DNA of 20,189 nt from a virus, in the IMG/VR virus record IMGVR_UViG_3300031865_000008, positions 1 through 20,189 of that record; one strand, 5' to 3'. How positions within the stretch are numbered: the stretch's first letter is position 1; every line of letters begins with the position of its first letter. The notes beneath the pieces are model-generated. The model had not been told where the DNA came from. It was given only the letters and a program-made list of their open reading frames with translations, and searched no databases. This document shows, piece by piece, positions 1,584 through 18,259 of this stretch. The position numbers were made by a program, and so were the translations under genes.

Positions 1584-1608
1584 GGGTGACAATTTGTCAC
1601 CCTTTCCA
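1582..1608 (+). terminator. palindromic hairpin: terminator or operator
   Basis: Two 11-bp arms, AAGGGTGACAA (1582-1592) and TTGTCACCCTT (1594-1604), flank a single T, and a short pyrimidine run (TCC) follows. The left arm overlaps the TAA stop of the upstream gene. This fits an intrinsic terminator, although the U-tract is weak. The right arm also contains TTGTCA, a good -35 box for the TATAAT at 1618, so the palindrome could instead be an operator. Confidence 0.55.
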
Positions 1609-1625
1609 TTCGCGTCGTATAATTC
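1594..1625 (+). promoter_or_regulatory. promoter, -35 TTGTCA / -10 TATAAT
   Basis: TTGTCA (1594-1599) is separated by 18 bp from TATAAT (1618-1623), which sits inside the CGTATAATTC motif that recurs in this window. It is the only copy with a convincing -35 box. It is also the only copy without an ATG within 10 nt, so its transcript would have a leader of roughly 70 nt before the ATG at 1704. Confidence 0.6.
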
Positions 1626-1688
1626 GTCAGCACACACCACAGCGGGTATCCTATGGGAGGCGTCGCGACGCGCGACTCCACTTCCTAT

Positions 1689-1703
1689 CGTACAATTCTA
1701 ACG
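1689..1703 (+). promoter_or_regulatory. leaderless -10 promoter CGTACAATTC
   Basis: The -10 box TACAAT (1691-1696) lies 7 nt before the ATG at 1704. That is the distance expected if transcription starts at or beside the A of the start codon. No -35 box is recognisable about 17 bp upstream. Confidence 0.55.
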
Positions 1704-1910
1704 ATGGCGAAACGCAAGGATGACCGATGGCTCAGCGGTGAGGAACTGATTGAGGCGCTCAAGCGGGAACTGAACGGACACGAGGTGACCGACGAACCCG
1801 CGAAACCGCGCACGCCGCAATACACCTTGCGTATCCCGCGCAAGCGTGCCAATCCGCCGAAGCCCCCGAAGAAGAAGCCGAACACCGATCAGAAACGGCT
1901 CGACATATAG
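1704..1910 (+). CDS. small basic hypothetical protein, leaderless start
   Basis: This is a 68-aa protein starting MAKRKDDRW. The frame stays open back to an ATG at 1653. I choose 1704 because CGTACAATTC ends 5 nt before it, as in the other leaderless genes here, while the 1653 ATG overlaps a GGGAGG Shine-Dalgarno-like string. The N-terminal half has a short amphipathic stretch (GEELIEALKREL). The C-terminal half is rich in Pro, Lys and Arg (RKRANPPKPPKKK), as in disordered nucleic-acid-binding tails. The family is not recognised. The TAG stop falls within the first unit of the 11-bp repeat array. Its place between the tail-fibre-like gene and the tail operon gives no firm function. A DNA-binding or regulatory role is possible but unproven. 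Confidence 0.6.
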   Translation: MAKRKDDRWLSGEELIEALKRELNGHEVTDEPAKPRTPQYTLRIPRKRANPPKPPKKKPNTDQKRLDI

Positions 1911-1956
1911 TCGACATGTAGGTGACATGTAGTTGACATGTAGTTGACATGTAGTC
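1902..1956. repeat. five tandem 11-bp repeats, GACATGTAGTY
   Basis: Units are GACATATAGTC (1902-1912), GACATGTAGGT (1913-1923), GACATGTAGTT (1924-1934), GACATGTAGTT (1935-1945) and GACATGTAGTC (1946-1956). Each of units 2-5 contains the palindrome ACATGT. The 11-bp period is close to one helical turn, so the units face one side of the helix. The array ends 41 bp before the predicted start of the tail-operon transcript at 1997 and overlaps the stop codon of the preceding gene. It looks like a protein-binding array: activator, repressor or iteron type. Confidence 0.9.
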
Positions 1957-1982
1957 ACTCGCTCGCAAAGGCTAACGCGCGG

Positions 1983-1996
1983 CGTATAATTCAGCG
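1983..1996 (+). promoter_or_regulatory. leaderless -10 promoter CGTATAATTC of the tail operon
   Basis: TATAAT (1985-1990) lies 6 nt before the ATG at 1997. No -35 hexamer is visible about 17 bp upstream, but the 11-bp repeat array covers -95 to -41 if A1997 is +1. This layout suggests a promoter that depends on a protein bound at the array. Confidence 0.65.
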
Positions 1997-2347
1997 ATGG
2001 CTACCCGACGCAAGCGCACGGTAAACGAGACGACGACTGCGAACGAGCCGCAGGCGGTGGTACAGCCTGCGGCGGATGGAATCGTGGCGACGGAGTGTAT
2101 GACGGTCGACGGCTACGAGAGCGTGCGACGACTCGTCACGCCAAACGGCGTCTACTACGGCATACCCGACCCAGAGAACGGCACTCTCTACCGCTGTCTC
2201 CGCGAGGACGAATGGAACGCCTTTCAACGCATCCTTGACGACCTCGCCAGCTTCATGACCATCTCGCGCGAGCTGGCGTTCCGATGTCGCGTGACGGATT
2301 TCGGCGGTGTTGTCACGGTTCGTCTCGGCGAGGGAGGTGACGACTGA
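1997..2347 (+). CDS. hypothetical protein, first gene of the tail operon
   Basis: This 116-aa protein is not recognised. It has a basic, Thr- and Ala-rich, probably disordered N-terminus (MATRRKRTV to about residue 30). A mixed alpha/beta region follows (YESVRRLVTPNGVYYGIPD, then EWNAFQRILDDLASFM), with a Val-rich C-terminal strand region. The start is set by the leaderless -10 box 6 nt upstream. The TGA stop shares its A with the ATG of the tail-tube-like gene (2345-2349), so the two are translationally coupled. Position just before the tube gene fits a small tail-assembly or neck protein, but I cannot assign one. Confidence 0.7.
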   Translation: MATRRKRTVNETTTANEPQAVVQPAADGIVATECMTVDGYESVRRLVTPNGVYYGIPDPENGTLYRCLREDEWNAFQRILDDLASFMTISRELAFRCRVTDFGGVVTVRLGEGGDD

Positions 2348-3279
2348 TGCCCGTACTCTACATCCCGCACGGTAGGCGCGCCGTATTAGGCATCGCGCAG
2401 ACGCTTGACCCGTCTTCGCCTCCAGCGGACGCCAACTACACGCCGTACCCCCTTGTAGGCGCGGCGGTCATGCGACGGCGCAATCTCATCGTTCCGCCCA
2501 TCCACTCGCGCGACTGGGCGTTCCTCTATAGCGACGGCGTGCAGTTCGCGCAGATCCAGCTGCGCATCCTCTGCATGCGCCACGCGACGGGGTTCGGACT
2601 CGGGATGGATGCGACGCTCCTCGACTGGATTATGGCTCGCAAGGCTGACGGCGACTCCTACGCCGCGTCTATCCGTCTCTACGACGGCAACGCGACCTAC
2701 CAGTTCCACGGCTGCAAGGTGCAGACGGCGCAGATGACCGTCACGAAGGGCGACCTCATCATGTGGAACATCGTCGCGCAAGCGCCGAATATCGGTACGC
2801 AGCTCAGCACGAACCCGTCCCAGCTCGTCTATCCCCAGTTCGCCGAGACGCCGCTCACTTGGCGCGATGTGCTGTTCGTCTCTACCGGCAACATCGACCT
2901 TCAGCCCATCTACAGCGTCGAGTTCTCTGTCGCCAACAATCTCATCATGAACGCGCCCATCGCTGAAGGCACTGAAAACTTCGGCACGGCGCTCGCGCGA
3001 TGGGACGGCGGACAGATGCAAGCCTCGGCGACCATCACGCTCCAGTATTACCGCGACGACCAGCTCGCCAGTCTCTACAACCCGAACGGGTTCGACTTCG
3101 GTATCCGATTCAGCTCGCCGAGCAACCGATTCATCCGATTCCCGCGGCTCGTCGCCGAGAACCCCATCGACCTGCCCGTCAACTACGGCCCGATGTTCAA
3201 ACAGGTGCAGTGCGTCGCGCTGGGCACGCCCGTTTCGGAACAGGCGGGCACGCCGCCGATATACCATGCGACCTCATAG
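2347..3279 (+). CDS. probable tail tube protein
   Basis: This 310-aa protein is translated from a strong Shine-Dalgarno sequence (AGGGAGGTGA, 2331-2340) with a 6-nt gap to the ATG. The sequence is beta-rich. GCKVQTAQMTVTKGDLIMWN (about residues 121-140) and YSVEFSVANNLIMNAPIAEG (about 188-207) resemble the strand patterns of tail-tube beta-sandwich proteins. The direct placement before the tape-measure gene supports this. The role would be to polymerise into hexameric rings around the tape measure and form the channel for DNA and ejected proteins. It ends with TAG directly followed by the ATG of the tape measure, leaving no room for the usual tail-assembly chaperone pair. The family match is by pattern and context only. 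Confidence 0.6.
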   Translation: MPVLYIPHGRRAVLGIAQTLDPSSPPADANYTPYPLVGAAVMRRRNLIVPPIHSRDWAFLYSDGVQFAQIQLRILCMRHATGFGLGMDATLLDWIMARKADGDSYAASIRLYDGNATYQFHGCKVQTAQMTVTKGDLIMWNIVAQAPNIGTQLSTNPSQLVYPQFAETPLTWRDVLFVSTGNIDLQPIYSVEFSVANNLIMNAPIAEGTENFGTALARWDGGQMQASATITLQYYRDDQLASLYNPNGFDFGIRFSSPSNRFIRFPRLVAENPIDLPVNYGPMFKQVQCVALGTPVSEQAGTPPIYHATS

Positions 3280-6147
3280 ATGGAACGCGAGCGTGAGCTG
3301 ACCTTCAACATCCGACTGGACGGACTTGAGAAGCTCAAGTCCGACCTCGAATCGCTCGTACAAACGCTCCAATCGCTCCTGCCGAGTGTGCCCGCGCCGC
3401 CGACGGGCTGGAGCGTCACGCCGTCGGGAATCGCTGTGCCCCCGTCAGCCACCTCTATCCCGTCGAGTCTTTCGGTAGCCCAGCAAGCGCACGCGCTGGG
3501 CATGCAAGCCACGCAACAGAACCGACCACCCACGCCGTCACCCAACCCTGCGCAGACAATCCATCACGCGACGCAGCCGTATGTGCAGGCGGTTCAGCAG
3601 GCACAGCAGGCGCAGCAGCAGGCACAGCAGGCGCAGCAGCAGGTACAGCAGGCGCAACAGCAGGCGCAACAGGCGCAACAGCAGGCGCAACAGGCGCAGC
3701 AGCAGGCGCAACAGGCGCAGCAGCAGGCACAGCAGGCGCAACAGGCGCAGCAGCAGGCGCAACAGGCGCAACAGCAGGCACAGCCCGATCTATACGAACA
3801 GTTAATCACGACGCTTCGGAATATCGCCAGCATCGGGTACGCAGGCGGGCGCATGGGACTCGGTACTTGGGCGATGGGACAGGTCGCTTCTGGACTTGCC
3901 ACCGCGCTGCAATCCATCCCCGCGCTCGGACTCGCGCTCAATCCCGCCACGATGGCAGCCGCAGCGGCGATGTTCCTCATCTCCCCGTCGCTCAACGCCG
4001 TCGGACGCAACATCGGCGCGGAGATGATGGCGGGCGTCACGGGACAAGGCGGCACCACGCCCAGCAGCATCTTCTACGACGCTATCACCTCGAACCCCAT
4101 CTTCCGCGTGCTGTCGTGGATACCGTTCTTCGGCCCGCAGATGGAAGCCGCCGTGCAGGGACACGCGCGGTTCCTGCGTGCCTACGAGTCGCAACTCGTC
4201 GCCGCGCTTATCACGCAACAGCGACCGCTCATGGCGATCCCGCTCGCAGGCATGGGCCCCGCGCTCGGTATCATGGGCATGGGCGTCGACCTGCTGGGGT
4301 TCTCACCTTACTACAGCGCCGTAGAACTTCAACGCGCCGCCGACCTCATGCTGCGCGGGTTCCGATTCCAACAGGGATTCACAGTGCGCGGCGGACTGCA
4401 ACCCGAATTCGGAACCCGCACGCTCACCAGCGAGCTGGACTTCTACACCCTAAGCGATGCGGAACGCCCGTCGCTGATCCAATCGCCGACAAGCATGCGC
4501 CTGATGCGACAGCGCGTCCGCGCCGACATCGACATCCCCGAACTGCGCGGCTATCGGTACATCGAGCAGCTGCTCGATACGGGTTATGTGCCCGAAACAC
4601 CCATCGCCACACCCACCGCTGTCGGGCGCGTCTTCCCGCGCACGCCCGCGAACATCCTCGAATTCACGGGCATGCTCCGACACACGCTGCTGCAGCAGTT
4701 TCCGATGTTTGGCGGCATAGTTAACCCCATCGTCGAGCAGGTACTCGACGAACTCGTCACGGCGGTCAACACGCCCGTCATGATGCAGCTCTTCGGCGCG
4801 GGCGCAGTCAATCGCTGGGATTACGCCCTCATGACACTCGCGCTGCAGGGCGACCCGCGCATGGTCTCGCTCCAGTTCGCCAACGCGCCCGATGGTCGGA
4901 GCCTGCGCGACATCGCGTGGGAGATGTTCTATCTCCAGCGCGGGCAGCAGCTCGCAGGCATCGAGACCGCACGCGCACAGATTCTGCTTGCGCAAGCCCA
5001 GCGGTTCGGCACCATCCGTGATACGACTGCAGCGTTCACGCGCCTGTACGAGACGACCGCCACTGAGGCGCAGCTCATCAATCAGCGCATCGCAAATATA
5101 GGCATGTATGCGCCCGCGCTGATGGACACGCCCGAGTTCAGGCAACTACTCGTCACGGCGGAGCAGCTCGCGCTGCGCCTGCGCGAGATTGCCGTGTCTA
5201 TGGCGCAGTTCCGCGTGCAGGTCACAGAGACGACCAGCGCGTTGGCGACTGTGCAGGCGGAGTACGGGCTGGTGATCGCGCGACGCGGCACAGCGGATAC
5301 TGTCGGCGGCGCGATGCTCACACGCGCTGAGACCCTTGTGCGCACGACCGATGCGCGAATCGAGGCGCTCCGTCAGCTCCAAGCGCAGGTCGGCGAGGTC
5401 GAAGCGATGCAAATCGAGACGCAGATTCAGCAGCTCGAACTCCAGCGCATCGCGGGTCTCGAATCGATGGCGACCCCGCCGCCCACGCAGGACTGGCTCC
5501 GACGACGCGCCGCAACGCAAGCGATACTGACCACCGCGCAGACCACCTTCGCGCAGTTCGCCGACATCCGCGCCCTCTACGAATCGCTCATGCGTCAGAC
5601 GGGCGAGCGGCTCCGCGCAATGGCGATGCATCGGGAGCGCATGCGCGAGCGCGGACTGTGGACAGAGGAGATGGAGACCCGATGGCGAATGGAGACGATG
5701 CAACAGGTCATCGAACTCGCGCAGTACCAGCAAGCCTACGAGAACCGCTGGCTCGACCGACTCGTCTCGCAGGTCTGGAACGCGCCCGCACGCATGGACG
5801 CCGTCGCGGCATGGTTCACACGGCGCGAGGCGAGCCTGTTCTATGACATCGTGCCGTGGGCGTTCGGTGGCACGCGCGAACGCGCCCAGTGGATGCGCGA
5901 GACCGTGCCGATGATGTACCGCACACTCATCGGTAGACTCGGCACGCAAGAGGGATTCATCGAGACCGCTATGGCAGCCATCATGGCGGGCGCACAGAAC
6001 ACCTTCAGCGGCGACCTGCGCATCCAAATCGTCGTCGAGGATTCGGGCAACCGTCTCATCGACGCGCAGCAGGTGCATCTCAACCTGAATAACCAGACGC
6101 GAGCCGTCGAATCCGTGACCGTCTCCGTGCCTGTACCGACGCAATAG
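3280..6147 (+). CDS. tail tape measure protein
   Basis: This 955-aa protein lies directly after the tube-like gene. Its length, helix-rich composition and hydrophobic segments fit a tape measure: it sets tail length and threads the tube lumen. Residues 1-35 form a charged amphipathic helix, and a Pro/Ser-rich linker runs to about 100. Residues 106-168 are nine Gln/Ala heptads (QQAQQAQ type). Hydrophobic, Gly/Ala-rich segments follow at about 190-245 (containing AMFLISPSLNAVG) and 310-345 (containing PLAGMGPALGIMGMGVDLLG), perhaps membrane-inserting on infection. Residues 560-860 are long Gln- and Arg-rich helices, and the extreme C-terminus is beta-like. At about 1.5 angstrom per residue the tail would be near 140 nm, an estimate only. 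There is no Shine-Dalgarno; the ATG abuts the upstream stop, so coupled re-initiation is likely. Confidence 0.88.
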   Translation: MERERELTFNIRLDGLEKLKSDLESLVQTLQSLLPSVPAPPTGWSVTPSGIAVPPSATSIPSSLSVAQQAHALGMQATQQNRPPTPSPNPAQTIHHATQPYVQAVQQAQQAQQQAQQAQQQVQQAQQQAQQAQQQAQQAQQQAQQAQQQAQQAQQAQQQAQQAQQQAQPDLYEQLITTLRNIASIGYAGGRMGLGTWAMGQVASGLATALQSIPALGLALNPATMAAAAAMFLISPSLNAVGRNIGAEMMAGVTGQGGTTPSSIFYDAITSNPIFRVLSWIPFFGPQMEAAVQGHARFLRAYESQLVAALITQQRPLMAIPLAGMGPALGIMGMGVDLLGFSPYYSAVELQRAADLMLRGFRFQQGFTVRGGLQPEFGTRTLTSELDFYTLSDAERPSLIQSPTSMRLMRQRVRADIDIPELRGYRYIEQLLDTGYVPETPIATPTAVGRVFPRTPANILEFTGMLRHTLLQQFPMFGGIVNPIVEQVLDELVTAVNTPVMMQLFGAGAVNRWDYALMTLALQGDPRMVSLQFANAPDGRSLRDIAWEMFYLQRGQQLAGIETARAQILLAQAQRFGTIRDTTAAFTRLYETTATEAQLINQRIANIGMYAPALMDTPEFRQLLVTAEQLALRLREIAVSMAQFRVQVTETTSALATVQAEYGLVIARRGTADTVGGAMLTRAETLVRTTDARIEALRQLQAQVGEVEAMQIETQIQQLELQRIAGLESMATPPPTQDWLRRRAATQAILTTAQTTFAQFADIRALYESLMRQTGERLRAMAMHRERMRERGLWTEEMETRWRMETMQQVIELAQYQQAYENRWLDRLVSQVWNAPARMDAVAAWFTRREASLFYDIVPWAFGGTRERAQWMRETVPMMYRTLIGRLGTQEGFIETAMAAIMAGAQNTFSGDLRIQIVVEDSGNRLIDAQQVHLNLNNQTRAVESVTVSVPVPTQ
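3586..3783 (+). repeat. 21-bp coding repeat: Gln/Ala heptads in the tape measure
   Basis: The DNA is built of CAG/CAA Gln codons and GCG/GCA Ala codons with a 21-bp period. It encodes nine seven-residue units (residues 106-168), mostly QQAQQAQ, with one Val substitution and one phase slip near the end. Ala falls at 3-4 spacing, the a/d pattern of an alanine-core coiled coil. The repetition explains a Cys-rich open frame on the opposite strand, which is an artefact. Confidence 0.9.
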
Positions 6148-6149
6148 CC

Positions 6150-8567
6150 ATGCGAGTACGCGCTGCTGCCCAGTGTGTGATTGACCTGCCCCACGCGGTC
6201 TGGGACTACTACCCCTATCCGCGATTGCGCTGGACGGACTTTCCCGCGCGGGGCAGTGCGTGGCGGTACGATAAGTCCGACGCGGGCATCGTCATCGAGC
6301 CGATTATCGACGCTGTACGCCTGCGCGAGCATGAACTGCCGACGGAACTGCTCGCATCGCATCGTACCGCGCCTGAAGACCCTACTGCGCCGACGCTGCA
6401 GGTGAGCCACTCCGTGACGCCGACGCTGGTCTCGGCGGATGTGCCGGGCGTCGGCAAGGTCTGGGAATACACGCTCGGCGGGCAGAAGTACCTGCACTGG
6501 TACGAACGCATGACGCCCCACACGGCGTATTCGGTACTCTGTGAACGCGCGGAGCATATCCCTGCCGATAGCGGCGACGACCGCTGGGTCGACGCCCAGC
6601 TCGCCCGACGCGGGTACATCATCCGCTGGCGCATGGAGCCGTACACGGCGACGAACGAGTCGCGCCCTGGCATTCGCATCGCGCTCGGACTACGCGAATC
6701 GGACGAGGCGACCGAGTATCTCTGGTACGCCTTGCAGATCACGCCGAGCCGTGCGCCTGAGCTGCTCGTGACCCGCGCGACGCTGGACGACATGCGCACG
6801 CTCACCAACATCATATGGACACCGCTCCGCTCGCTCCGCATCGACGGCATGGACGCCGAACTCGCCCAAACGCTGGATACCTACCGCGAGGAACCGCGCC
6901 CCGCCAGCCTCATGCACGGGCTGCGCGTCATCGTTCTCGGCGGACGATTGCTCATCGACCTCGAAGGTCTGCAAGCGCCGCTGGTCATCCCGCTGGTTCG
7001 CCCGCCCGCATTCAGCGACTACGCCGAAGACCCGTCCGACCCGCTCCCGCCGTACCAGCCGACGCCCATCCCGCCCGATAGGCTCATCGAGGTCGTGCAT
7101 ATCCGCTGGTGGCGCTGGCGCAGCATCATGCTCGCTATAAGCCCCATGTGGTTCGACGCCGTCGGCGAGATTGAGGGCGGCGAGCAGCAGGTCGGGTTCG
7201 TGCCCACTTCCGAGCCCGACATCAAGGAAGTGCGCTACGCCGTGCCGAAGCCCCCGAATACCGACGCGAGCGTCACCATCGAGGACATCCCCACTCTGCG
7301 GTACAAGCTCACCCTGCGCCACACGGACTCCACGCAACATCGCACCGTCGGCGACCGCACCGTCGCGCCCGACACGCCCATCGTGCGCTGCGTCGACTTC
7401 GGGTTCGACCCGACGCCCCAGCGCGACCTGTCCGATCCCTCGCTGGCGCAACCGCAGGAGATAACCGTCGCGTGGCAGTTCGACATCGCGCGATTGCAGA
7501 TACGCTCGCAGGCGCAACTGGTCTACCTCGACCCCGACGGGTACTGGGCAGACTGGAACCAGCAGGTGGGACAACGCGCGATTCGCATCCAGCTCGCACG
7601 GTACGCGCACGATGTCGTCGGCGGAGTCGATGTGCAACTCCCGCCCCCAGCCACCATCCCGCTCACGACCGTGTTCACGGGCTACATGCATCGGAGCGGC
7701 ACGGTCAGCACAGGGCAGGGCGGCGTGCAGCAGTTCGTCGTGCAGTGCGTCGACCGCGTCGCGCAACTGGAGCAGCCGCGCTGGTGGCTCGCGTGGATGG
7801 ACGGGTGGAACAGCTACTACGCGATGGCGTACCTCGCAGGACTCGGCGGAATCGCGACCGACGACCTGCTCTTCGCAGGGCTCGTGCCCAGCACGCCGTA
7901 TGACGAGGTTCCCGCGCCCGAGCCCGCGTGGTTCCTGCCCGTCGGCGCGGCTGGTACACCGCTTACACGATTCACAGGCGTCCCGCTCTGGGAGGTGATG
8001 GGACGCATCGCGAAGACCATCGGGTTCCTGCTCTACTTCAACCAGCACGGGAAACTCGCCTTCCACAAGTTTCGCGGGCTGGAGACGCCCCCAACCGACG
8101 ACTTCGTGTTTACCGAGCAGGAGGCGACCGTCACGCTCCAGCGCGACCTCGGCGATGTGCGCAACACGGTCACCATCATCGGCGTCGACGCCTACGCCCC
8201 GCTCCAGCTGCCCATCGTCTCGCATCGCGTCGACACAGCCAGCATGAACGACCCGACCGCGCCGAACTACATCGGCTACCCGCAGCCGTTCGTCTGGGCA
8301 GACTCGCAGTTCGCGCGACTGGAGTTCGCACGCGCCGCCGCCGACACTATCTTCCAGCTCTTCCGACAACCGAACGAGGCGATCACCATGCGCGTGCCGC
8401 TCACGCCGAACCTGTTCCCTGGCGCGGGCGTGCGGTTCATCTCGCGCAATAACAGGTTCGGTATCAATAACAAGCGGTACTTGGTGACCAGCGTGCAGCA
8501 TCGCGTCTGGGGCGGGTCGCACGGCGAAACAACGCTCACCGCGCGATATTTCGGCGACGCCGTATAA
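6150..8567 (+). CDS. tail hub/baseplate-like protein
   Basis: This 805-aa protein starts 2 nt after the tape-measure stop with no Shine-Dalgarno, so translation is probably coupled. Position after the tape measure is that of distal tail or tail-hub proteins. The N-terminal part (about 1-470) is beta-rich and unassigned. Around residues 610-640, PLWEVMGRIAKTIGFLLYFN and HGKLAFHKF resemble the late-control-D or prophage-tail hub pattern of an early helix followed by a dGkl strand. NTVTIIGVDAY (about 671-681) and the C-terminal FPGAGVRFISR region fit the same fold. No peptidase or lysozyme motif was found. The last codons GTA TAA form part of the TATAAT promoter box of the next gene. Confidence 0.55.
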   Translation: MRVRAAAQCVIDLPHAVWDYYPYPRLRWTDFPARGSAWRYDKSDAGIVIEPIIDAVRLREHELPTELLASHRTAPEDPTAPTLQVSHSVTPTLVSADVPGVGKVWEYTLGGQKYLHWYERMTPHTAYSVLCERAEHIPADSGDDRWVDAQLARRGYIIRWRMEPYTATNESRPGIRIALGLRESDEATEYLWYALQITPSRAPELLVTRATLDDMRTLTNIIWTPLRSLRIDGMDAELAQTLDTYREEPRPASLMHGLRVIVLGGRLLIDLEGLQAPLVIPLVRPPAFSDYAEDPSDPLPPYQPTPIPPDRLIEVVHIRWWRWRSIMLAISPMWFDAVGEIEGGEQQVGFVPTSEPDIKEVRYAVPKPPNTDASVTIEDIPTLRYKLTLRHTDSTQHRTVGDRTVAPDTPIVRCVDFGFDPTPQRDLSDPSLAQPQEITVAWQFDIARLQIRSQAQLVYLDPDGYWADWNQQVGQRAIRIQLARYAHDVVGGVDVQLPPPATIPLTTVFTGYMHRSGTVSTGQGGVQQFVVQCVDRVAQLEQPRWWLAWMDGWNSYYAMAYLAGLGGIATDDLLFAGLVPSTPYDEVPAPEPAWFLPVGAAGTPLTRFTGVPLWEVMGRIAKTIGFLLYFNQHGKLAFHKFRGLETPPTDDFVFTEQEATVTLQRDLGDVRNTVTIIGVDAYAPLQLPIVSHRVDTASMNDPTAPNYIGYPQPFVWADSQFARLEFARAAADTIFQLFRQPNEAITMRVPLTPNLFPGAGVRFISRNNRFGINNKRYLVTSVQHRVWGGSHGETTLTARYFGDAV

Positions 8568-8576
8568 TTCATCGCT
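8561..8576 (+). promoter_or_regulatory. leaderless -10 promoter CGTATAATTC
   Basis: TATAAT (8563-8568) lies 8 nt before the ATG at 8577 and contains the TAA stop (8565-8567) of the upstream tail gene. No -35 box is evident. It would start a transcript carrying the small basic gene and probably the packaging genes. Confidence 0.65.
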
Positions 8577-8765
8577 ATGGAGAAGACGAAGCACATCCAC
8601 ATCGGCTCATCGCATCCGAAGCGCGGAACCGACAAGTACGGCAAGTATTCGCTCGGCAACTGCCACCATGAGGCAACTACCGTGCCCACGCGGCGCGGGG
8701 TGCATTCCTCGTTCCAGCGACGCAGGACGCCGAAATCGACGCTGCGCATGCGACGGACGCGATAG
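8577..8765 (+). CDS. small basic hypothetical protein, leaderless start
   Basis: This is a 62-aa, strongly basic protein with many Arg/Lys and six His residues. It begins MEKTKHIHIGSSHPKRG and ends in an Arg-rich tail (RMRRTR). It has a single Cys in GNCHHEA. It has no recognisable domain and no membrane segment. The start is set by the CGTATAATTC element, 8 nt from TATAAT to ATG, with no Shine-Dalgarno. Its TAG stop (8763-8765) overlaps the AGGAG Shine-Dalgarno of the ParB-like gene, so the two are probably co-transcribed. Charge and context are compatible with nucleic-acid binding during packaging, but no function can be assigned. Confidence 0.6.
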   Translation: MEKTKHIHIGSSHPKRGTDKYGKYSLGNCHHEATTVPTRRGVHSSFQRRRTPKSTLRMRRTR

Positions 8766-8775
8766 GAGACGCGCG

Positions 8776-9459
8776 ATGACAGTAAGCCCACAGGTCGAGG
8801 TCGTACCCATCGATTCCGTTCGTCCGCATCCGAAGAACACGCGCCGTCATCCGCAGGAGCAGATTGAGCTGATTAAGAACTCGCTGCGCGAGTTTGGTCA
8901 GTACCGTCCGATTGTCGTGCATGCGGGCACTGATTACATCCTCGCGGGCAACGGCGTCTACGAAGCGGCGCGCCAGCTCGGCTGGGAGACGATCCGCGTC
9001 GTGCGCGTCGAGTGCGATGAGACCCATGCGCTCGCGATACTCATGGCGAACAACCGCCTCGCGGAACTTAGCTGGTGGGACTACGAATCGATGGTTGCCA
9101 TCCCCGAACTCCAGCCCGTGCTGGAGATGCCCGTGTTCGACGAATCGTTCGTGCGCATGATTGAAATCGAGCTTGACGCGATTCTCGAAGCGCAGTCGAA
9201 CGCGCTGATGCAAGACGAGTTCCTGCCTGTTGACCGCGCGGATCGCGGGGCGTCCGCCGTGCGCAACCCTGCCGCGGCGGCAATCATCCGTACCGTGATG
9301 GTCGCCGTGACGCGCGACGATGACCTGCTCGCGCGTCAACTCCATGCGCACCTGCGCGAGGTAGACTCTGAATATGCCGAAAACACCGAAGAGCAGTACG
9401 ACGGGCGCCTCTTCACAGCACTCCTCCGCCGTACAGAATCTCCTGCTGGAACCGATTGA
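8776..9459 (+). CDS. ParB-like N-terminal domain protein
   Basis: This 227-aa protein starts at ATG 8776, 7 nt after AGGAG (8764-8768). The frame is open further upstream, but that part reads as a shadow of the preceding gene. Residues 8-105 show the ParB/sulfiredoxin-like fold pattern: VVPIDSVRPHPKNTRRH, then IKNSLREFGQYRPIVV, DYILAGNGVYEAARQLGW and LMANNRLAELSWWDYES. These match the ParB N-terminal domain often seen next to phage terminases, sometimes fused to DNA methylases; no methylase motif is present here. Residues 110-227 have no assigned domain. Chromosomal ParB proteins bind and hydrolyse CTP; whether this protein does, or acts as a nuclease or DNA-binding cofactor, is not shown. 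Its last 86 bp overlap the small-terminase gene. Confidence 0.8.
   Translation: MTVSPQVEVVPIDSVRPHPKNTRRHPQEQIELIKNSLREFGQYRPIVVHAGTDYILAGNGVYEAARQLGWETIRVVRVECDETHALAILMANNRLAELSWWDYESMVAIPELQPVLEMPVFDESFVRMIEIELDAILEAQSNALMQDEFLPVDRADRGASAVRNPAAAAIIRTVMVAVTRDDDLLARQLHAHLREVDSEYAENTEEQYDGRLFTALLRRTESPAGTD
9362..9373 (+). promoter_or_regulatory. possible -10 box TAGACT before terS
   Basis: TAGACT (9362-9367) lies 6 nt before ATG 9374, the same spacing as the stronger leaderless boxes. It matches TATAAT at four of six bases and is inside the ParB-like gene. A GAGGT string at 9358-9362 could act as a distant Shine-Dalgarno instead. Confidence 0.35.
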
Positions 9460-9976
9460 GGGCGAGCCGACACGGGCGTACCGCGCGTTCTGCCACTACG
9501 CCACAGTCGCTCGCTCCATGCGTCAAGCGGCGGCTGCCGTCAACGCATCGCTTCCGACCGTCGCGCGATGGGCGCGGAAGTACCGCTGGCGCGAACGCAT
9601 CATCGAGTACGAACAGCGCATTCAGGAACAGATTAACAACATCCGCTTGCACTATGCGCTCCATCTGACCCCGCTGGCGGCGCGAACGATTGAGCAGCTC
9701 CTGCGCGATGACCAGACCCCGCCGAATGTTCGCGCATCGTTGGCGATTGATGTGTTGCGTGGCGTCGGCGTGCTACGCGACGAGTCGCGCGTCGAGTGGA
9801 CATCCACGCCTGAGACGAACCCGCTCGTGCAGGCGCTACGAGAGATCCGCAGTCAAGTAGAATTGTCCTCGCATGCTCGCAGCGTGGAATCGTCTCCCGC
9901 CGATACAGTGGAAGCCGAAGCTCTACCAGCTGATGGACTTCCAGCCGCACGACGCGCAAGCGGAGATACTCTATAG
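9374..9976 (+). CDS. terS: terminase small subunit
   Basis: This 200-aa protein lies directly before the large terminase. Residues 47-66 (ARSMRQAAAAVNASLPTVAR) form a helix-turn-helix, followed by WARKYRWRERIIEYEQR. That Trp/Arg pattern is typical of small terminases that recognise the packaging site and load TerL. Residues 85-140 are helical and probably oligomerise; the Ser/Ala/Glu-rich C-terminus looks disordered. The start at 9374 is kept despite the 86-bp overlap with the ParB-like gene, because no in-frame start occurs again before residue 49, which is inside the HTH. The final 104 bp overlap the large terminase gene, which may explain the low-complexity C-terminus. Confidence 0.8.
   Translation: MPKTPKSSTTGASSQHSSAVQNLLLEPIEGEPTRAYRAFCHYATVARSMRQAAAAVNASLPTVARWARKYRWRERIIEYEQRIQEQINNIRLHYALHLTPLAARTIEQLLRDDQTPPNVRASLAIDVLRGVGVLRDESRVEWTSTPETNPLVQALREIRSQVELSSHARSVESSPADTVEAEALPADGLPAARRASGDTL
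9858..9872 (+). promoter_or_regulatory. possible -10 box TAGAAT before terL
   Basis: TAGAAT (9858-9863, five of six matches to TATAAT) lies 9 nt before the ATG at 9873, inside the small-terminase gene. No Shine-Dalgarno precedes that ATG. The arrangement matches the other leaderless promoters here. Confidence 0.4.
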
Positions 9977-11177
9977 CCCCGCGCGGTTCCGCATCGTCGC
10001 GTGCGGACGACGGTTTGGCAAGACGACCGCGGCGTCTGCAGAAGCCGTTGCCTACGCGCTGCTGGGCGGACATGTCTGGATCGTCGCGCCGACTTATGAC
10101 CTCACGCGACCGCTCACCTACGGCGTCGAAGGCATCCTGCGCAACCTCTGTCTCAAGTCGGGTCTGCAGTATAAGGACATCGTCGCGCGGCGGCGCTCCG
10201 TACCCTACGAGATAGAGTTCACGACGGGCGGGATACTCCAGTCGCGCACGGCGGAGAACCCGCGCTCGCTGCAAGGACGCGCGGTTGACCTGCTCGTCAT
10301 CGACGAAGCGGCGACCATCCGCGAGGGGTACATCTGGTCGCAGTACCTGCGTCCCATGCTGACCGACCGTGAGGGTCACGCGCTCATTATCTCGACACCG
10401 AAGCGTATGAACTGGTTCTGGGATCTATTCGTCGCAGGCAAAGACCCTGCGCAGCAACAGTTCGCAGCGTTCCAGATGCCCACGCATCGCAACCCATACA
10501 TCCCGCGCGACGAGATTGAGCAGATGCTCGCCGAACTCGACGAGGATACCGCGCGTCAGGAAATCTATGCCGAGTTCCTGCCCGATGGCGGGAGCGTGTT
10601 TCGCAACCTCACGCGCTGCCTGAACGCGGAGTGGCAGCCCGCGCCCATCGCGGGACACCAATACACCGTCGGGGTCGACCTCGCCAAGTACCGCGACTAC
10701 ACGGTCATCGCCGTCATCGACGCGACTCGAAAGCACCTGTGCTATATGGAGCGGTTCAACCTCATCGACTGGAACACACAAGCGGAGCGCATCATGCAGG
10801 TCGCTCGCAGGTTCCACGCGCCGATATGCATCGACGCTACAGGCAACGACCACATGGCGGACACGCTCCAGCGCAACGGGCTGGCGGTCTATCCGTTCGT
10901 GTTTACGCCGATGAGCAAGCTCACAGTCGTCTCCAAGCTCGCGATGGGTCTGGAATACGACGGGCTGCAACTGCTCAACGACCCGATACTCGTCGACGAG
11001 TTCACACGGTTTGAATACGAGCGCACAGACACGGGGCGGCTCCGCGTGAAGGCGCCCGAAGGGAAGCACGACGACATTGTGATTGCGGTCGCGCTCGCAT
11101 GGGAACTCGCTATCCCGTACACGCGCTCGGTCGGATACCTGCCGATGGTCGATGACCGCTGGATGCGCAGCGTATAA
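9873..11177 (+). CDS. terL: terminase large subunit (packaging ATPase/nuclease)
   Basis: This 434-aa TerL drives DNA translocation into the prohead and cuts the concatemer. The ATPase domain shows Walker A GRRFGKT (residues 45-51), Walker B LLVIDE (140-145) and the coupling motif STPK (174-177). The RNase H-like nuclease domain shows acidic residues in VGVDLAKYRD (D269), CIDATG (D321) and KHDD (D400/D401). Length and motif order are normal, so the enzyme looks intact. Start 9873 is preferred for its upstream TAGAAT box; ATG 9933 (MDFQPHDAQ) is the alternative and still overlaps terS. The gene ends GTA TAA, with the stop inside the next TATAAT box. Confidence 0.95.
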   Translation: MLAAWNRLPPIQWKPKLYQLMDFQPHDAQAEILYSPARFRIVACGRRFGKTTAASAEAVAYALLGGHVWIVAPTYDLTRPLTYGVEGILRNLCLKSGLQYKDIVARRRSVPYEIEFTTGGILQSRTAENPRSLQGRAVDLLVIDEAATIREGYIWSQYLRPMLTDREGHALIISTPKRMNWFWDLFVAGKDPAQQQFAAFQMPTHRNPYIPRDEIEQMLAELDEDTARQEIYAEFLPDGGSVFRNLTRCLNAEWQPAPIAGHQYTVGVDLAKYRDYTVIAVIDATRKHLCYMERFNLIDWNTQAERIMQVARRFHAPICIDATGNDHMADTLQRNGLAVYPFVFTPMSKLTVVSKLAMGLEYDGLQLLNDPILVDEFTRFEYERTDTGRLRVKAPEGKHDDIVIAVALAWELAIPYTRSVGYLPMVDDRWMRSV

Positions 11178-11186
11178 TTCCGCGAG
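11171..11186 (+). promoter_or_regulatory. leaderless -10 promoter CGTATAATTC
   Basis: TATAAT (11173-11178) lies 8 nt before the ATG at 11187 and includes the TAA stop (11175-11177) of terL. No clear -35 box was found. It probably also serves the helicase gene downstream. Confidence 0.65.
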
Positions 11187-11522
11187 ATGAACCGAATCCT
11201 ATTGCGCACATCGAAGCAGCGTCGCCGACGCGCACGCAAGCTGCTACAGCACTTGTGGAACCGACGGATTGAGCTGTCAGGCGTGGGCGTGCGCGTGTTC
11301 CACGACCCCGCCCAGACACGACTCGCTATCGTCTGGGATTCCGTCGACAGCTCTGGCGATTGGGTCAACGCTGTTGCTGCGACGCAAGCCGAACTCACGA
11401 CAGGACTCGGCTACACCGTGCGAAACTGGACATCGGGCAGCTGGGCGGCGCGACTGTTCGCGCTGACGACTACAGGCGATCCCAACGACATTCCGCTCTC
11501 GCAGTTCCCGATCCTGCCTTAA
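11187..11522 (+). CDS. hypothetical protein with basic N-terminus, leaderless start
   Basis: This 111-aa protein is not recognised. The first 26 residues are strongly basic (MNRILLRTSKQRRRRARKLL). The rest is neutral, beta-leaning and rich in Trp and Thr (RLAIVWDSVDSSGDWVNAVA, then WTSGSWAARLFALTTTG), ending in a Pro-rich tail. The start follows the CGTATAATTC element with no Shine-Dalgarno. It stops 9 nt before the helicase gene. The two-part design could be a nucleic-acid-binding tail on a small beta domain, possibly a head-associated protein, but there is no direct evidence of function. Confidence 0.65.
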   Translation: MNRILLRTSKQRRRRARKLLQHLWNRRIELSGVGVRVFHDPAQTRLAIVWDSVDSSGDWVNAVAATQAELTTGLGYTVRNWTSGSWAARLFALTTTGDPNDIPLSQFPILP

Positions 11523-11531
11523 CGAACTGGT

Positions 11532-14699: not shown

Positions 14700-16177
14700 T
14701 ACGGAAACTGTTGCAGCGGTTCGCGAAGCCTGCACCACCCGTGCAGGGTCAGCAGGCGCGAGTCGGTCAGAACCGACTCGGCGCGCCGTTAGCCGCGTTC
14801 TCGCCAGACGGACGCATGCTGGCGTACCGTCTGGACGATGTCACCATCCGCGACCTCGACCGCCTGCGCCAAGACCCAGTGATACGCGCCTCGCTGCGCC
14901 TCATCAAGCTGCCCATCCTGCGCTGCGACTGGTACATCAACGCCGAAGACGACCGCGTCGGGGCGTTCCTGCAGTCCGCACTGGAGCCCCACATGTACGA
15001 CCTGCTCTGGGCGCTATGCACAGCGTTCGATTTCGGAGTCGCGTTCGTCGAGAAGGTGCTGGAGTTCCGTAAGGAGTACCGCACGACGCGCACGATGTCG
15101 ACGACGCCCGCACGGCAGGAACTCCGCTTGCGCGATGTATGGATACTCTCGCGCGTGGCACATCTCGACCCGTCCATCTACTGGGCACTGGTGTATCCCA
15201 CAGGGGAGTTCGCGGGCGTGCGACACCTCGTGACGCCGTTCGCGCCCGAAGGCGAAATCATCGAAGAAGGACGACTGATTCACTTCGCGCTCGACGCCGA
15301 GTTCAACGAGGTGTACGGGAACCCGCTGATTAAGCCCGCGCTGCCGTTCTTCGAGCTGAAGCAACGCGCCCTGCAGGACATGGCGACCTACTACTCGACC
15401 TACGCCGTGCCGACGAAGAAGGGGTTCGCGCCCCCTGGCAAGACGCCCATCGGCACGACGGAATCGGGCGAACCCATCGTGGTGGATAACCTGCAGTACC
15501 TGAGCGAGCAGCTCGATAAGCTGGCAAACGCGCACTCCATCGTACTGCCGTCACTCTATGACGCGAATGGTCAGCGGATGTGGGATGTCGAAGCGTTTGA
15601 GGTGCCGCCCGCTGTCGCCATCGAGAACTACATCCACTTCCTTGACGAGCAGATGCGTCAAGCGATGCTGGTTCCCTCGCTGGCGACGATTCACCCGCAA
15701 CGGGGCACCTACGCACTCGGTCAGTCGCAGATTGACCTGTTCTTGCAGAACGAGGATGCGTACCTGACGCAAATTGAGTCGGTGCTGAACAAGCAGCTGA
15801 TTCCCGACTTGGTGCGGTACAACTTCGGGAGCGATGCAAAGGCGCGAATCGTGATGCGCATCGATCATGCGTACACGAAGCATCTGGTCGAGTCGTTCGT
15901 GCAGCGGCTCGCGGCGGGTCAGCCTGTGACGACGGCGGACGGGGATGTGATTGTGCCCGACTGGGCGCTCATCGCCGAGGACGCGGGCGTGCCCGTGCGC
16001 ACGCAAGCCGCGTCGGAGATGGACTACCTGCACGGAATCGCGTGGCAGGGCGGCAGGAACATTAACGAAGACGCCGAACGAAACGGTATGTTTGGAGGTG
16101 ACGACGATGTGGACAGTGGAACAGATGCGGATAACCGTTCAACTCTGCCTTATCGAGGATCCGATAACGGGCGCTAA
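14696..16177 (+). CDS. portal protein, DUF935/Mu gp29-like
   Basis: This 493-aa protein has the size and order of the portal that forms the dodecameric vertex channel and docks terminase. It starts in an ATGA overlap with the helicase gene. RDLDRLRQDPVIRASLRLIK (about 52-71), then LPILRCDWYI, match the portal N-terminal pattern. FNEVYGNPLIKPALPFFELK (about 203-222) with MATYYSTYAVPTKKG and PPG matches DUF935 portals. ESVLNKQLIPDLVRYNFG (about 361-378) is another family-typical stretch. The C-terminal tail is acidic and Gly/Asp-rich, probably disordered. A TATACT at 14663-14668 might be a weak promoter. The last 71 bp overlap the next gene. Assignment is from pattern and neighbours (MuF, I protease) and is fairly firm. 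Confidence 0.85.
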   Translation: MIRKLLQRFAKPAPPVQGQQARVGQNRLGAPLAAFSPDGRMLAYRLDDVTIRDLDRLRQDPVIRASLRLIKLPILRCDWYINAEDDRVGAFLQSALEPHMYDLLWALCTAFDFGVAFVEKVLEFRKEYRTTRTMSTTPARQELRLRDVWILSRVAHLDPSIYWALVYPTGEFAGVRHLVTPFAPEGEIIEEGRLIHFALDAEFNEVYGNPLIKPALPFFELKQRALQDMATYYSTYAVPTKKGFAPPGKTPIGTTESGEPIVVDNLQYLSEQLDKLANAHSIVLPSLYDANGQRMWDVEAFEVPPAVAIENYIHFLDEQMRQAMLVPSLATIHPQRGTYALGQSQIDLFLQNEDAYLTQIESVLNKQLIPDLVRYNFGSDAKARIVMRIDHAYTKHLVESFVQRLAAGQPVTTADGDVIVPDWALIAEDAGVPVRTQAASEMDYLHGIAWQGGRNINEDAERNGMFGGDDDVDSGTDADNRSTLPYRGSDNGR

Positions 16178-16541
16178 GACGGTCTGGCTGCGTGAGCATG
16201 AGTACGAGAAGCTGTCGCCGCCGTGGCGGGTGGTCGAGTCGCACGAGGTGCAGGTACGCGCGATTTCGTACATCGAGAGTCTGCGTGCGCAGGACGCTGC
16301 GACCGACATCGACGCTGCGACGGGTCAAGCGGTCATCTCAGCGAGTCGGTATATGTTAGAACTGCTGAAGACAGCGACGGGACTCGACGCGGATACGATT
16401 GCATCGCTCCCTAAACCCGTCGGCGAGAAGCTCGCGTCGATGGTAACGAGGCTATCCGACCCAAACCTGATGTTGCCGAGCGTGCCCGCGTCGAACTCCT
16501 CACCAGCGACGAGCCCCAGCTCGCCATCAGCAGGTTCGTAA
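16107..16541 (+). CDS. hypothetical head-module protein
   Basis: This 144-aa protein starts at ATG 16107, 6 nt after GGAGGTG (16094-16100). That Shine-Dalgarno decides the start, although the frame is open upstream to 15951 within the portal gene. It begins MWTVEQMRITVQLCLIEDP. A first beta part (TGAKTVWLREHEYEKL, about 21-36) is followed by helices around residues 50-115. The Ser/Pro/Ala-rich tail (about 127-144) looks disordered. The family is not recognised. It overlaps the portal gene by 71 bp and stops 18 bp before the MuF-like gene, so it is part of the head operon. A head-assembly accessory role is possible. Confidence 0.65.
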   Translation: MWTVEQMRITVQLCLIEDPITGAKTVWLREHEYEKLSPPWRVVESHEVQVRAISYIESLRAQDAATDIDAATGQAVISASRYMLELLKTATGLDADTIASLPKPVGEKLASMVTRLSDPNLMLPSVPASNSSPATSPSSPSAGS

Positions 16542-16559
16542 TTCTATGGGAGGCAGGCG

Positions 16560-17321
16560 ATGCGCGACTCGATTTGGAACATGCTCCTGCAGGATATGCT
16601 CGGCTATGCTTTGAGCTGCGGTCAATCTGGCGCGACCGACTGCGAAATCATCTTGCTAAGTTATCGCAGGCACGGGGTTCCGAGTCAGGTGACGCGGGGC
16701 TATAAGCGTCCGCAGGATGCACGCGCCTCGTATACCAAGCTGGAGCGAGCCTTCCGCAGGGAACTGTTGGAGCAGTGGGATAAGTACGAATCGGGTCAGA
16801 TGACGCTGGAGGAGTTCGAGGGCTGGTTCGCCGTGCGTCAGCAGGAGACGCTGGTGCATGCGTTCGCGCTCGGTCTGGCAGGTCGCGGGATTCGCGGCAA
16901 GACACGGTTCACGGACGATGAGCTGCGCTACCTGCACGGTCAATACTCGCAGCAGATGCGCTACTTCCGTCGCTTCATGCGCGATGTGCGTGCAGGTCGC
17001 GGACGGATGCCGTACCGCCAGCGTCTGGAGCTGTACGGGCGCGACTTGTACGGGGTCTTCATGACCGCATGGTTCGCCTACGGCGCAGACCGCTCGCACC
17101 GATTCTTATGGCGTCTCTCGCCCGATGCGGAACACTGCGAGGACTGCGTGCAACGCGCGACGGAATCGCGAGCGAAGGGCGGGTACACTTACGACGAACT
17201 CATTAAGCTGGGCTTGCCAGGCACGGGGAAGACGCGCTGCTTGAATAACTGTCGCTGCTGGATCGAAGAAATCACGACGGGTCAGAAGACGACGCCGAGG
17301 AGGCTAAGACCGAAGCGATGA
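16560..17321 (+). CDS. Mu gpF-like head morphogenesis protein
   Basis: This 253-aa protein is translated from a GGGAGG Shine-Dalgarno (16548-16553). The body is helical and Arg/Gln-rich. The C-terminal part has the MuF hallmark: SPDAEHCEDC (C193, C196), a spacer, then LPGTGKTRCLNNCRCWIEE (C227, C231, C233), which looks zinc-binding and matches the family ending in CxxNCRC. MuF proteins sit at or near the portal, are needed for head morphogenesis and can be injected with the DNA. No toxin or nuclease domain is fused here, unlike many MuF polymorphic-toxin forms. The Lys/Arg-rich C-terminus (TTPRRLRPKR) may bind DNA. The stop overlaps the next ATG (ATGA, 17318-17321). Confidence 0.78.
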   Translation: MRDSIWNMLLQDMLGYALSCGQSGATDCEIILLSYRRHGVPSQVTRGYKRPQDARASYTKLERAFRRELLEQWDKYESGQMTLEEFEGWFAVRQQETLVHAFALGLAGRGIRGKTRFTDDELRYLHGQYSQQMRYFRRFMRDVRAGRGRMPYRQRLELYGRDLYGVFMTAWFAYGADRSHRFLWRLSPDAEHCEDCVQRATESRAKGGYTYDELIKLGLPGTGKTRCLNNCRCWIEEITTGQKTTPRRLRPKR

Positions 17322-17797
17322 CTCTGATAGCACCTGTACGGCAGTGGTTAGTGGAGCGGCTCACGGAGTACGCGAGCTATTGCGAGGCGTTTGGACTCGC
17401 ACGCCCGACGGTGTACGAATGGTATCCGTCGGAGGTGCCGTTCGACAGGTTTCCCATCGTGATGGTGGGCAAGCTGCAATCGTCGCTGGTCTCGCTGGCG
17501 CTGCCAGAGCTGTACGAGCAGCGCCATGTGTATAGCGTCGTCGGGGCGGTCTACTCGCCCGACCCGCGCGAGAGCATCCTGCAACAGGAGTGGTACGCCG
17601 ACCTCTGGCTGGACTATGTGCATCAGCATCCGCATCGGTTCCGTATGCACGCGTCGGAGTTCTACACATCGGATACATGGGCGCCGCAGGTCACGATGAC
17701 GCCCGTCTACATACAGGAGCATCCGTTGCATGGGTGGTCGTGCGAGGTGATGGTGACGCGCATCGTGCGTGGCGGCACGCGAGGTGATGGTTCGTGA
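17318..17797 (+). CDS. putative head-tail connector or tail terminator-like protein
   Basis: This 159-aa protein is coupled to the MuF-like gene by an ATGA overlap, with AGGAGG (17298-17303) 14 nt upstream. It opens with an amphipathic helix (VRQWLVERLTEYASYC). A segment follows with FPIVMVGKLQSSLVSLALPE, then beta YEQRHVYSVVGAVYSPDPRE, then helix LQQEWYADLWLDYVHQHPHR and more strands. The order helix, P-x-hydrophobic strand, beta hairpin, helix, beta resembles tail-terminator or neck proteins, and such genes usually lie near the head genes. I cannot prove the match from sequence alone. A minor head protein is the main alternative. Confidence 0.4.
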   Translation: MTLIAPVRQWLVERLTEYASYCEAFGLARPTVYEWYPSEVPFDRFPIVMVGKLQSSLVSLALPELYEQRHVYSVVGAVYSPDPRESILQQEWYADLWLDYVHQHPHRFRMHASEFYTSDTWAPQVTMTPVYIQEHPLHGWSCEVMVTRIVRGGTRGDGS

Positions 17798-18171
17798 TAC
17801 TCTCGGTCGCGGAGCAGCGGGTCATCCGCCTCTGTCGGATTATCGGGTACGGTCATATTGACGCGCTGTATGTCTCGGACGCCGAACCGTCGCATCTGGT
17901 GGGCGAACGCGCGATTGAGTGTCGCATCGATCCCACTAAAGGCGACTCGCGCTGCGTGGAGCCGTTCGAACTGCAGGAGCCTGAGGCGGATGTCACACTC
18001 CATCCCAACGAGGAGCGACTCGTCCATCTGATACGCTCCATCCAGCGCGGGTTCATCCGAATCGCGGTCAAGGACGGTATCCCCGTCAGCTGGAACTACT
18101 ATCCCGACTTGCCGTCGCGTGCGGAGCTGCGGAGCAAGGCGGTAGACGAGCTGTTGCTCGATCCGAAATAG
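17794..18171 (+). CDS. hypothetical protein with internal duplication (DUF2292-like repeats)
   Basis: This 125-aa protein starts at GTG 17794, overlapping the previous stop as GTGA, with GAGGTG (17781-17786) 7 nt upstream. Residues 7-33 (EQRVIRLCRIIGYGHIDAL and on) and 73-98 (EERLVHLIRSIQRGFIRIAV and on) align with one gap, sharing E, R, L, R, I, G, I, D and P at matching places. The second copy resembles the small DUF2292-type pattern of an I-x-x-G-x-I-x-I strand followed by DGxPV. The role is unknown. It is the last gene before the capsid-operon promoter and is probably the 3' end of the portal operon. Confidence 0.65.
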   Translation: MILSVAEQRVIRLCRIIGYGHIDALYVSDAEPSHLVGERAIECRIDPTKGDSRCVEPFELQEPEADVTLHPNEERLVHLIRSIQRGFIRIAVKDGIPVSWNYYPDLPSRAELRSKAVDELLLDPK

Positions 18172-18181
18172 CGAAATTCGC

Positions 18182-18198
18182 CGTATAATTGGTCGATG
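18182..18198 (+). promoter_or_regulatory. capsid-operon promoter CGTATAATTG with ATG-TAG start-stop
   Basis: TATAAT (18184-18189) lies 6 nt before an ATG (18196-18198) that is immediately followed by TAG (18199-18201). A small palindrome GCGAAATTCGC (18171-18181) ends just before the motif and could be an operator. No -35 box is evident. The promoter precedes the protease, scaffold and capsid genes, which need high expression. Confidence 0.6.
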
Positions 18199-18199
18199 T

Positions 18200-18247
18200 A
18201 GCAGGCGGTGCGCTTGCATCATGCGAGCGCACCGCCTGCTTCGTTTT
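18200..18247 (+). terminator. near-perfect 20-bp hairpin with U-tract: leader hairpin, attenuator or terminator
   Basis: The arms 18200-18219 (starting AGCAGGCGGTGCGC) and 18221-18240 are complementary over 20 bp with one G-U pair, around a single C at 18220. TTCGTTTT follows. It reads as an intrinsic terminator of the portal operon, but it lies downstream of the capsid promoter. If transcripts begin at 18196 it would form the very 5' end of that mRNA, acting as an attenuator or stabilising 5' stem. Confidence 0.75.
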
Positions 18248-18259
18248 GGGAGCAGCAGA

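Follow-up and report, generated by a model that had tools for sequence, protein, structure and literature searches.

Conserved -10-like boxes beside gene starts in an uncultured phage group: probable promoters of leaderless genes

Introduction

Zheng et al. (2011; PMC3160421) describe TA-led genes, in which a TANNNT motif precedes the start codon by about 12 bp, from many phyla, with the form TAtaaT in Chloroflexi and Aquificae. In Deinococcus radiodurans, according to Zhong et al. (2025; PMC12340547), a -10 motif beside the open reading frame (ORF) is tied experimentally to transcription, to interaction with RpoD and to leaderless mRNA. The StartLink paper (PMC9581028) quotes a prediction that 21.6% of bacterial species use leaderless transcription, and a review (PMC3594737) ascribes leaderless middle and late mRNAs to the Thermus phage phiYS40. 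Here, we analyse a virus stretch of 20,189 bases that makes up the whole IMG/VR record IMGVR_UViG_3300031865_000008 (hereafter the window), in which near-identical boxes with a TATAAT-like hexamer lie a few nucleotides (nt) before start codons.

The boxes of the window and its relatives resemble TA-led genes, as portrayed in PMC3160421, in that the first T of the hexamer lies 12-14 nt from the start and the genes lack a Shine-Dalgarno sequence; they differ in being stricter, with the form S-G-TAYAAT-T-NNN-CG, and in being carried by a phage. Their sequence layout fits the -10-only arrangement beside the ORF of Deinococcus-Thermus (PMC12340547). Phage phiYS40, by its description in a review (PMC3594737), is also a phage with many leaderless mRNAs, which in the present case are predicted; unlike what is described there, the present boxes stand before a holin gene and before genes of the minus strand as well. 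Among the papers listed first in literature searches on leaderless genes, phage and extracytoplasmic function (ECF) sigma factors, Thermus phages and Chloroflexi, none describes this box in its title or the opening of its abstract, which is no proof that no such description exists.

Results

The window holds genes for a tail-tube protein, ParB, terS, terL, a helicase, a Mu-like portal and a Mu-like head protease. All six near-identical copies of the box that a previous, sequence-only reading had placed in it were found: four exact copies of CGTATAATTC, one of CGTACAATTC and one of CGTATAATTG, that is, six sites on the plus strand and none on the minus strand. The boxes and the genes next to them are listed below in window coordinates.

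1616..1625, plus strand: box CGTATAATTC, predicted promoter with a leader, no nearby start codon; TTGTCA 18 nt upstream of the hexamer
1689..1698, plus strand: box CGTACAATTC, ATG 1704 follows 7 nt on
1704..1910, plus strand: gene of 68 amino acids (aa) without Shine-Dalgarno; alternative in-frame ATG at 1653; homologue in L007
1983..1992, plus strand: box CGTATAATTC, ATG 1997 follows 6 nt on
1997..2347, plus strand: gene of 116 aa ahead of the tail genes, without Shine-Dalgarno
8561..8570, plus strand: box CGTATAATTC, ATG 8577 follows 8 nt on; contains the TAA of the preceding gene
8577..8765, plus strand: gene of 62 aa ahead of ParB-terS-terL, without Shine-Dalgarno
11171..11180, plus strand: box CGTATAATTC, ATG 11187 follows 8 nt on; contains the TAA of terL
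11187..11522, plus strand: gene of 111 aa without Shine-Dalgarno
18182..18191, plus strand: box CGTATAATTG, putative promoter of the head-protease unit; predicted transcription start 18196

The near-exact boxes are far above chance. In 400 dinucleotide shuffles scored on both strands, none reached the observed number of CGTATAATTC (4, against a shuffle mean of 0.003), of CGTAYAATTS (6 against 0.030) or of SGTAYAATT-N5-7-ATG (5 with 18182 included, against 0.003), and the reversed-pattern control gave 0. A loose form of the box with up to two mismatches showed no enrichment in the window (8 against 7.09 expected), so the claim depends on the near-exact copies. As had been proposed, five of the six boxes have an ATG 6-8 nt on (spacings 6, 6, 7, 8 and 8), but one of these, ATG 18196, is directly followed by TAG. 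Since 1616 has no start at 5-9 nt either, the window holds four leaderless candidate genes and not five. We rejected ATG 18196 as a gene start, the same place reading GTG-TAG in L033.

A TerL query recovered eight contigs with 95-97% identity and one with 32%, and a portal query recovered further relatives with 57-59% identity (the 58% cousins) and one with 47%. The ATGs of two of the starts listed are at 16107 and, in L046, at 826. The sequence-only reading had suggested scanning related phages for the box and its distance to ATG; SGTAYAATT, counted in the window, in a 33.6-kb relative (G001), in G027 and in part of G003, relatives with 95-97% identity, gave 13 distinct copies. In ten of them an ORF starts 6-8 nt after the hexamer, which agrees with the TANNNT distance of TA-led genes. 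The remaining three are 18182 with its ATG-TAG, and 1616 and the antisense copy L047 6732 (G001 31729), both without a start. None of the other TAYAAT copies in these sequences, in which the T after or the S-G before is missing, has a start at 5-9 nt. G001 contains seven CGTAYAATTS on the plus strand, none on the minus strand and none in the reversed control.

Looser scans revealed boxes beyond the window: before a holin gene (L046 423), before the minus-strand gene that diverges from it (L046 382), before two genes of the minus strand near the right end (L047 7928 and 7015) and before both members of another divergent pair in L248. The occurrence of boxes on both strands and before a holin gene refutes the earlier proposal that the motif belongs to late genes. 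In the two divergent pairs (L046 382-423 and L248 10610-10649) the hexamers stand back to back, 14 and 10 bp apart, and the upstream part of each putative promoter overlaps the -10 of its partner.

Among the 19 window starts listed, four have a box, ten have a Shine-Dalgarno of -6.5 kcal/mol or stronger and five have neither. The four box genes lie at -1.7 kcal/mol or weaker, which upholds for them the earlier statement that box ATGs lack a Shine-Dalgarno; behind 18182, the protease gene has GGGAG. Of the six further box genes, the holin gene has -5.9 kcal/mol and the other five have -3.1 or weaker, so that nine of all ten share the lack of a Shine-Dalgarno that marks TA-led genes. Random positions gave a median of -2.9, a 10% level of -6.4 and a 5% level of -7.7, and between these two levels fall three starts counted among the ten with a Shine-Dalgarno (-6.5, -7.3 and -7.3, terS included); the Shine-Dalgarno of terS is, moreover, too distant from its ATG. 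Box genes stand at the heads of units, and most Shine-Dalgarno genes sit inside units.

The consensus of 12 aligned copies, from which the antisense L047 6732 was omitted, is S-G-TAYAAT-T-NNN-CG. A G directly 5' and a T directly 3' of the hexamer are present in 12 of 12, which is partly imposed by the selection of sites, and the base preceding the G is C or G. CG occupies columns 10-11 in ten of the 12 (p 1.3e-7, uncorrected, at the CG frequency of the window). Because these sites take in two divergent pairs and two adjacent genes of the minus strand, they are distinct but perhaps not fully independent. In the usual geometry of primary sigma factors column 12 is +1, and CG thus falls at -2/-1. 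Its spacing is constant to the hexamer and not to the ATG, which lies at +1 when the spacing is 6 and at +3 when it is 8; at the hexamer 1691, with spacing 7, CG is shifted one base later.

The boxes are kept in relatives: that at 11187 in eight of eight close contigs, that at 8577 in the four contigs covering it, and those at 1704 and 1997 in the single contig that covers them (boxes named here by the start they lead). Across the distinct ortholog rows of 1689, 8561, 11171 and 18182 the hexamer and the following T are constant. The tenth base is C, G or T in relatives and the bases between TATAATT and CG vary too; in the rows of 8561, 11171 and 18182 the bases up to CG are variable, and L010 has TG for CG at 8561. 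The 1616 box is partly kept, L007 reading GTATAATC, in which GTATAAT is present and the following T is lost.

A promoter scan reported 1616 as the only one of the six window boxes. An extended -10, that is, a TG one base 5' of TATAAT, is present in only one of the 12 aligned sites (L047 -7029), and the boxes do not belong to that class. The cousin L042 reads TTGACA, 18 nt, TATAAT, 9 nt and ATG.

The boxes at 18182 and 1616 are not leaderless, and their sequences predict leadered promoters. For 1616, which has its next start at 1704 or at the in-frame ATG 1653, the features just upstream, together with those behind 18182, are given below.

1582..1604, plus strand: hairpin and short T run, terminator-like, at the end of the upstream gene just 5' of the 1616 box (fold -14.7 kcal/mol, z -4.57)
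18200..18240, plus strand: hairpin of 19 bp close behind the predicted transcription start; resembles a terminator or may stabilise the 5' end
18248..18252, plus strand: Shine-Dalgarno GGGAG of the protease gene
18260..19252, plus strand: Mu-like head protease gene, leadered

The hairpin at 1582..1604 was not among the results of a terminator scan. The transcript predicted from 18182 would consist of four bases, the 19-bp hairpin, GGGAG and the protease start at 18260. The 80-nt stretch with this hairpin folds at -45.5 kcal/mol (z -6.69), and in L033 the stem still pairs, one pair being changed on both sides. Cousins L039-L043 show the same arrangement: a TCGTATATTAATG element comes first, followed by a hairpin (altered in L043), by a T run that is stronger than the weak one in the group of the window, and by the protease start. 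The hairpin may be a terminator, an attenuator or a 5' stabiliser.

At the end of gene 1704, positions 1900-1956 form an 11-bp tandem repeat of TCGACATGTAG with 5.2 copies, shorter in L007, which generates two TTGACA (1933 and 1944).

Two weaker relatives of the box had been proposed before the terminase genes:

9362..9367, plus strand: TAGACT before terS (9374), weak, promoter role not supported
9858..9863, plus strand: TAGAAT before terL (9873), weak, promoter role not supported

Upstream of window ORFs of at least 60 aa, TANNNT occurs nine times at 6-8 nt and nine times at 16-18 nt. At 6-9 nt its number is mildly high (18 against 10.3 in shuffles, 12 of 400 of which reach 18). Given the equal numbers at the two distances, the proposed promoter role of these two boxes finds no support.

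The core of the box was also sought in cellular genomes. A first pattern, GTATAATN{6,9}ATG, exceeded the reversed pattern in the majority of 16 genomes, though not in every one, and was discarded as too loose. In a sample of 400 Chloroflexota genomes, the phylum of G007 (assigned via a contig titled Chloroflexi), GTATAATT-N5-7-ATG is present in 193, and in 38 of the 400 by hand count it occurs 10-41 times against 0-4 times reversed. Ten rich genomes have 226 matches at N5-7 against 56 at N15-17. Eleven of 16 sites in four rich genomes precede ORFs of at least 236 aa; all ten ORFs scanned behind GTATAATT sites contain Pfam domains (e.g., GidB, DNA ligase, protein kinase and aldo/keto reductase), the first domain starting by residue 24 in seven of the ten. 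By its sequence and position, the core box resembles a type of promoter with which bacteria express genes of their own. A match is also present in 103 of 199 Acidobacteriota genomes. G432, from the phylum of G012, has 39 GTATAATT-N5-7-ATG against one reversed and seven at N15-17; many of its copies read GTATAATTYCCCCATG, a form of its own, and some lie near contig ends, perhaps as a repeated element.

Searches for a host found none. TerL had no relative in genome_contigs, and a portal profile had no match at E up to 1e-10 in the 400 genomes of the phylum of G007, a search in which a positive control was absent. A genome scan for CGTATAATTSNNCGATG returned at least 120 stretches, which indicate no host because they are spread over many phyla. 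Among annotated phages TerL and portal have only relatives below 60% identity, and among plasmids the portal has one match with 21% identity. Viral contigs outside the group, taken from matches to a 17-base pattern and counted on stretches and not on whole contigs, have a GC content of 51% or less where they carry at least two box-ATG matches, so that none resembles a phage of the same host.

By its sequence and predicted model, the phage group encodes a sigma factor of its own:

L047:1151-1642 (G001 26150-26641): gene for a putative ECF-like sigma factor, within the structural unit and directly behind the connector gene
L042:18524-19081: counterpart in a cousin, at the same place

The protein of G001 has 164 aa, lies about 1.8 kb past the end of the window and matches phrog_1740, RNA polymerase sigma factor (E 1.8e-7). 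It is found in 13 contigs, where the structural unit that follows the 18182 box encodes it, and has a counterpart with 21% identity at the same place in the 58% cousins; the 47% relative has none at the place fetched. Against annotated phages it has one weak match (29.5%, E 0.01). In eight aligned members, at E up to 1, Pfam finds Sigma70_r2 in eight (best 3.1e-8, in the cousins) and Sigma70_r4 in three. The predicted structure (mean predicted local distance difference test score 82.6, predicted template modelling score 0.56) superposes in its N-terminal part on the SigC Pribnow-box region (Z 9.9, 2.6 Å over 83 residues) and in its C-terminal part on a sigF complex (Z 8.8, 2.1 Å over 62 residues), values that helical models may reach without kinship. 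The first Foldseek hits are sigma-factor chains, with a best E of 0.015 and none at 0.001; eight of the first nine carry titles of sigma structures that we take to be ECF, and one is a mycobacterial initiation complex. The modelled protein has the ECF layout, with sigma2 and sigma4 domains and no more.

Discussion

The boxes are probably -10-only promoters of the host's primary sigma factor, placed so that the genes at the heads of transcription units would be leaderless. The housekeeping (sigma-A type) RNA polymerase of the presumed host would read S-G-TAYAAT-T-NNN-CG and start at the base after CG. Unit-head genes that lack a Shine-Dalgarno would then have their ATG at +1 (spacing 6), at +2 (one site, spacing 7) or at +3 (spacing 8), and the mRNA that serves for translation of the first gene in such a unit would have only 0-2 nt of leader, while genes deeper in the units would mostly rely on a Shine-Dalgarno or lie close behind the preceding gene. 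At 18182 and 1616 the same form of promoter would yield leadered mRNAs, that of 18182 almost starting with a strong hairpin. A -10-only leaderless class fits the position of the boxes, the absence of Shine-Dalgarno sequences, the conservation among relatives and the TA-led class known from the literature, and we regard it as partly supported.

Several observations weigh against this explanation. The L047 6732 copy (G001 31729) lies antisense inside a gene and precedes no start. The best upstream column for a common -35 (-17, relative entropy 0.99) is at the 95% level of random sites and holds the opposite box of a divergent pair in four of 12 rows, so no common -35 is shown. Two boxes hold the stop codon of the preceding gene, which by itself would preserve their TAA. 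Recognition by sigma-A is argued by analogy, from the resemblance to TATAAT and from another phylum, and a phage sigma factor does exist in the group. In the Chloroflexota sample, 207 of 400 genomes have no GTATAATT-N5-7-ATG match, the ten genomes with the N15-17 control were chosen for richness, none of the four sites of G007 itself precedes an ORF of at least 236 aa, and the listed matches mostly lack CG at -2/-1. Three of the 11 long ORFs (L268, L271 and L283) have a frame open 26-59 codons upstream, so their starts are not certain. Only five of 199 Acidobacteriota genomes by hand count reach ten matches with controls of at most 4. GTAYAAT at 6-8 nt is absent from two 50-kb plasmid stretches of Thermus and Meiothermus (Allomeiothermus) and from 31 kb of the Thermus phages phiFa and Riverbug. 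A Thermaceae-type motif was rejected on these records; the parallel with Deinococcus-Thermus that the sequence-only reading had drawn would hold for the predicted mechanism but does not hold for the sequence.

Late promoters of phage T4 are -10-only and are read with gp55, a sigma-family protein encoded by the phage. By analogy, the phage's own ECF-like sigma factor could read the present boxes, the mRNAs merely happening to be leaderless. The sigma-like gene downstream of the 18182 box, its counterpart in the cousins and the domain and fold matches given above speak for such a reader, as do the G before and the T after the hexamer and the CG at -2/-1, which exceed a plain TATAAT. We nevertheless consider it unlikely. 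In contrast to gp55, the phage protein is ECF-like (sigma2 plus sigma4), and the box, TATAAT-like, suits a primary sigma factor. ECF target promoters have an AAC-type -35 element, which is not clearly seen here; the 12 boxes, with no clear -35, are thus unlike the targets of such factors. The boxes head genes on both strands. In G001 no further CGTAYAATTS separates the 18182 box from the sigma gene downstream of it, so that the factor would be required for its own synthesis unless the gene has a second promoter. Finally, in some Chloroflexota GTATAATT precedes cellular genes by the same distance, so a phage factor is not needed. The dedicated sigma factor or activator of the earlier reading is therefore dispensable, although the group does encode an ECF-like sigma just past the window. 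The more specific proposal that this factor reads SGTAYAATTNNNCG without a -35 and starts transcription at +1 to +3, coupling phage transcription to leaderless translation, seems to us less likely still.

It is very unlikely that the boxes are -10 elements whose RNAs start further downstream, or that the annotated ATGs are wrong: two of the six window boxes (1616 and 18182) are indeed leadered and gene 1704 has an upstream in-frame ATG at 1653, but ten distinct genes have their ATG at 6-8 nt and none has a strong Shine-Dalgarno. Even less probable is a translation signal, in which a TAA beside the start codon couples termination to reinitiation and the rest of the box is kept by chance. The TAA of the preceding gene does lie inside the 8561 and 11171 boxes, 8 nt before ATG, but no such arrangement exists at 1689, at 1983 or in either divergent pair. 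The distinct rows all retain the T after TAAT and, with one exception, the CG at -2/-1, with variable bases in between, and the boxes at 18182 and 1616 have no gene start next to them. That chance or a coding-sequence artefact produced the boxes is scarcely credible, since the chance level of the loose motif is set against near-exact counts that no shuffle matches, an empty reversed control and sites kept in relatives.

If host-read -10-only promoters are the correct explanation, the leaderless -10-only mode would extend to an uncultured phage group, with a motif sharper than in the Thermaceae records examined. The start-site rule (CG, then +1) and the anatomy of the units, with leaderless heads and Shine-Dalgarno sequences inside, would aid the calling of gene starts. 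Should the phage sigma factor prove to read the box, the promoters would form a -10-only class of a kind unusual among the targets of ECF-like factors.

Other features of the window and its relatives

Within the gene of a 955-aa protein, positions 3595-3784 of the window form a 21-bp tandem repeat with nine copies. Past the sigma-like gene in L047 lie an AAA-type ATPase (L047:1943-4582, weak Pfam matches) and then a VWA-domain protein (L047:4471-6414).

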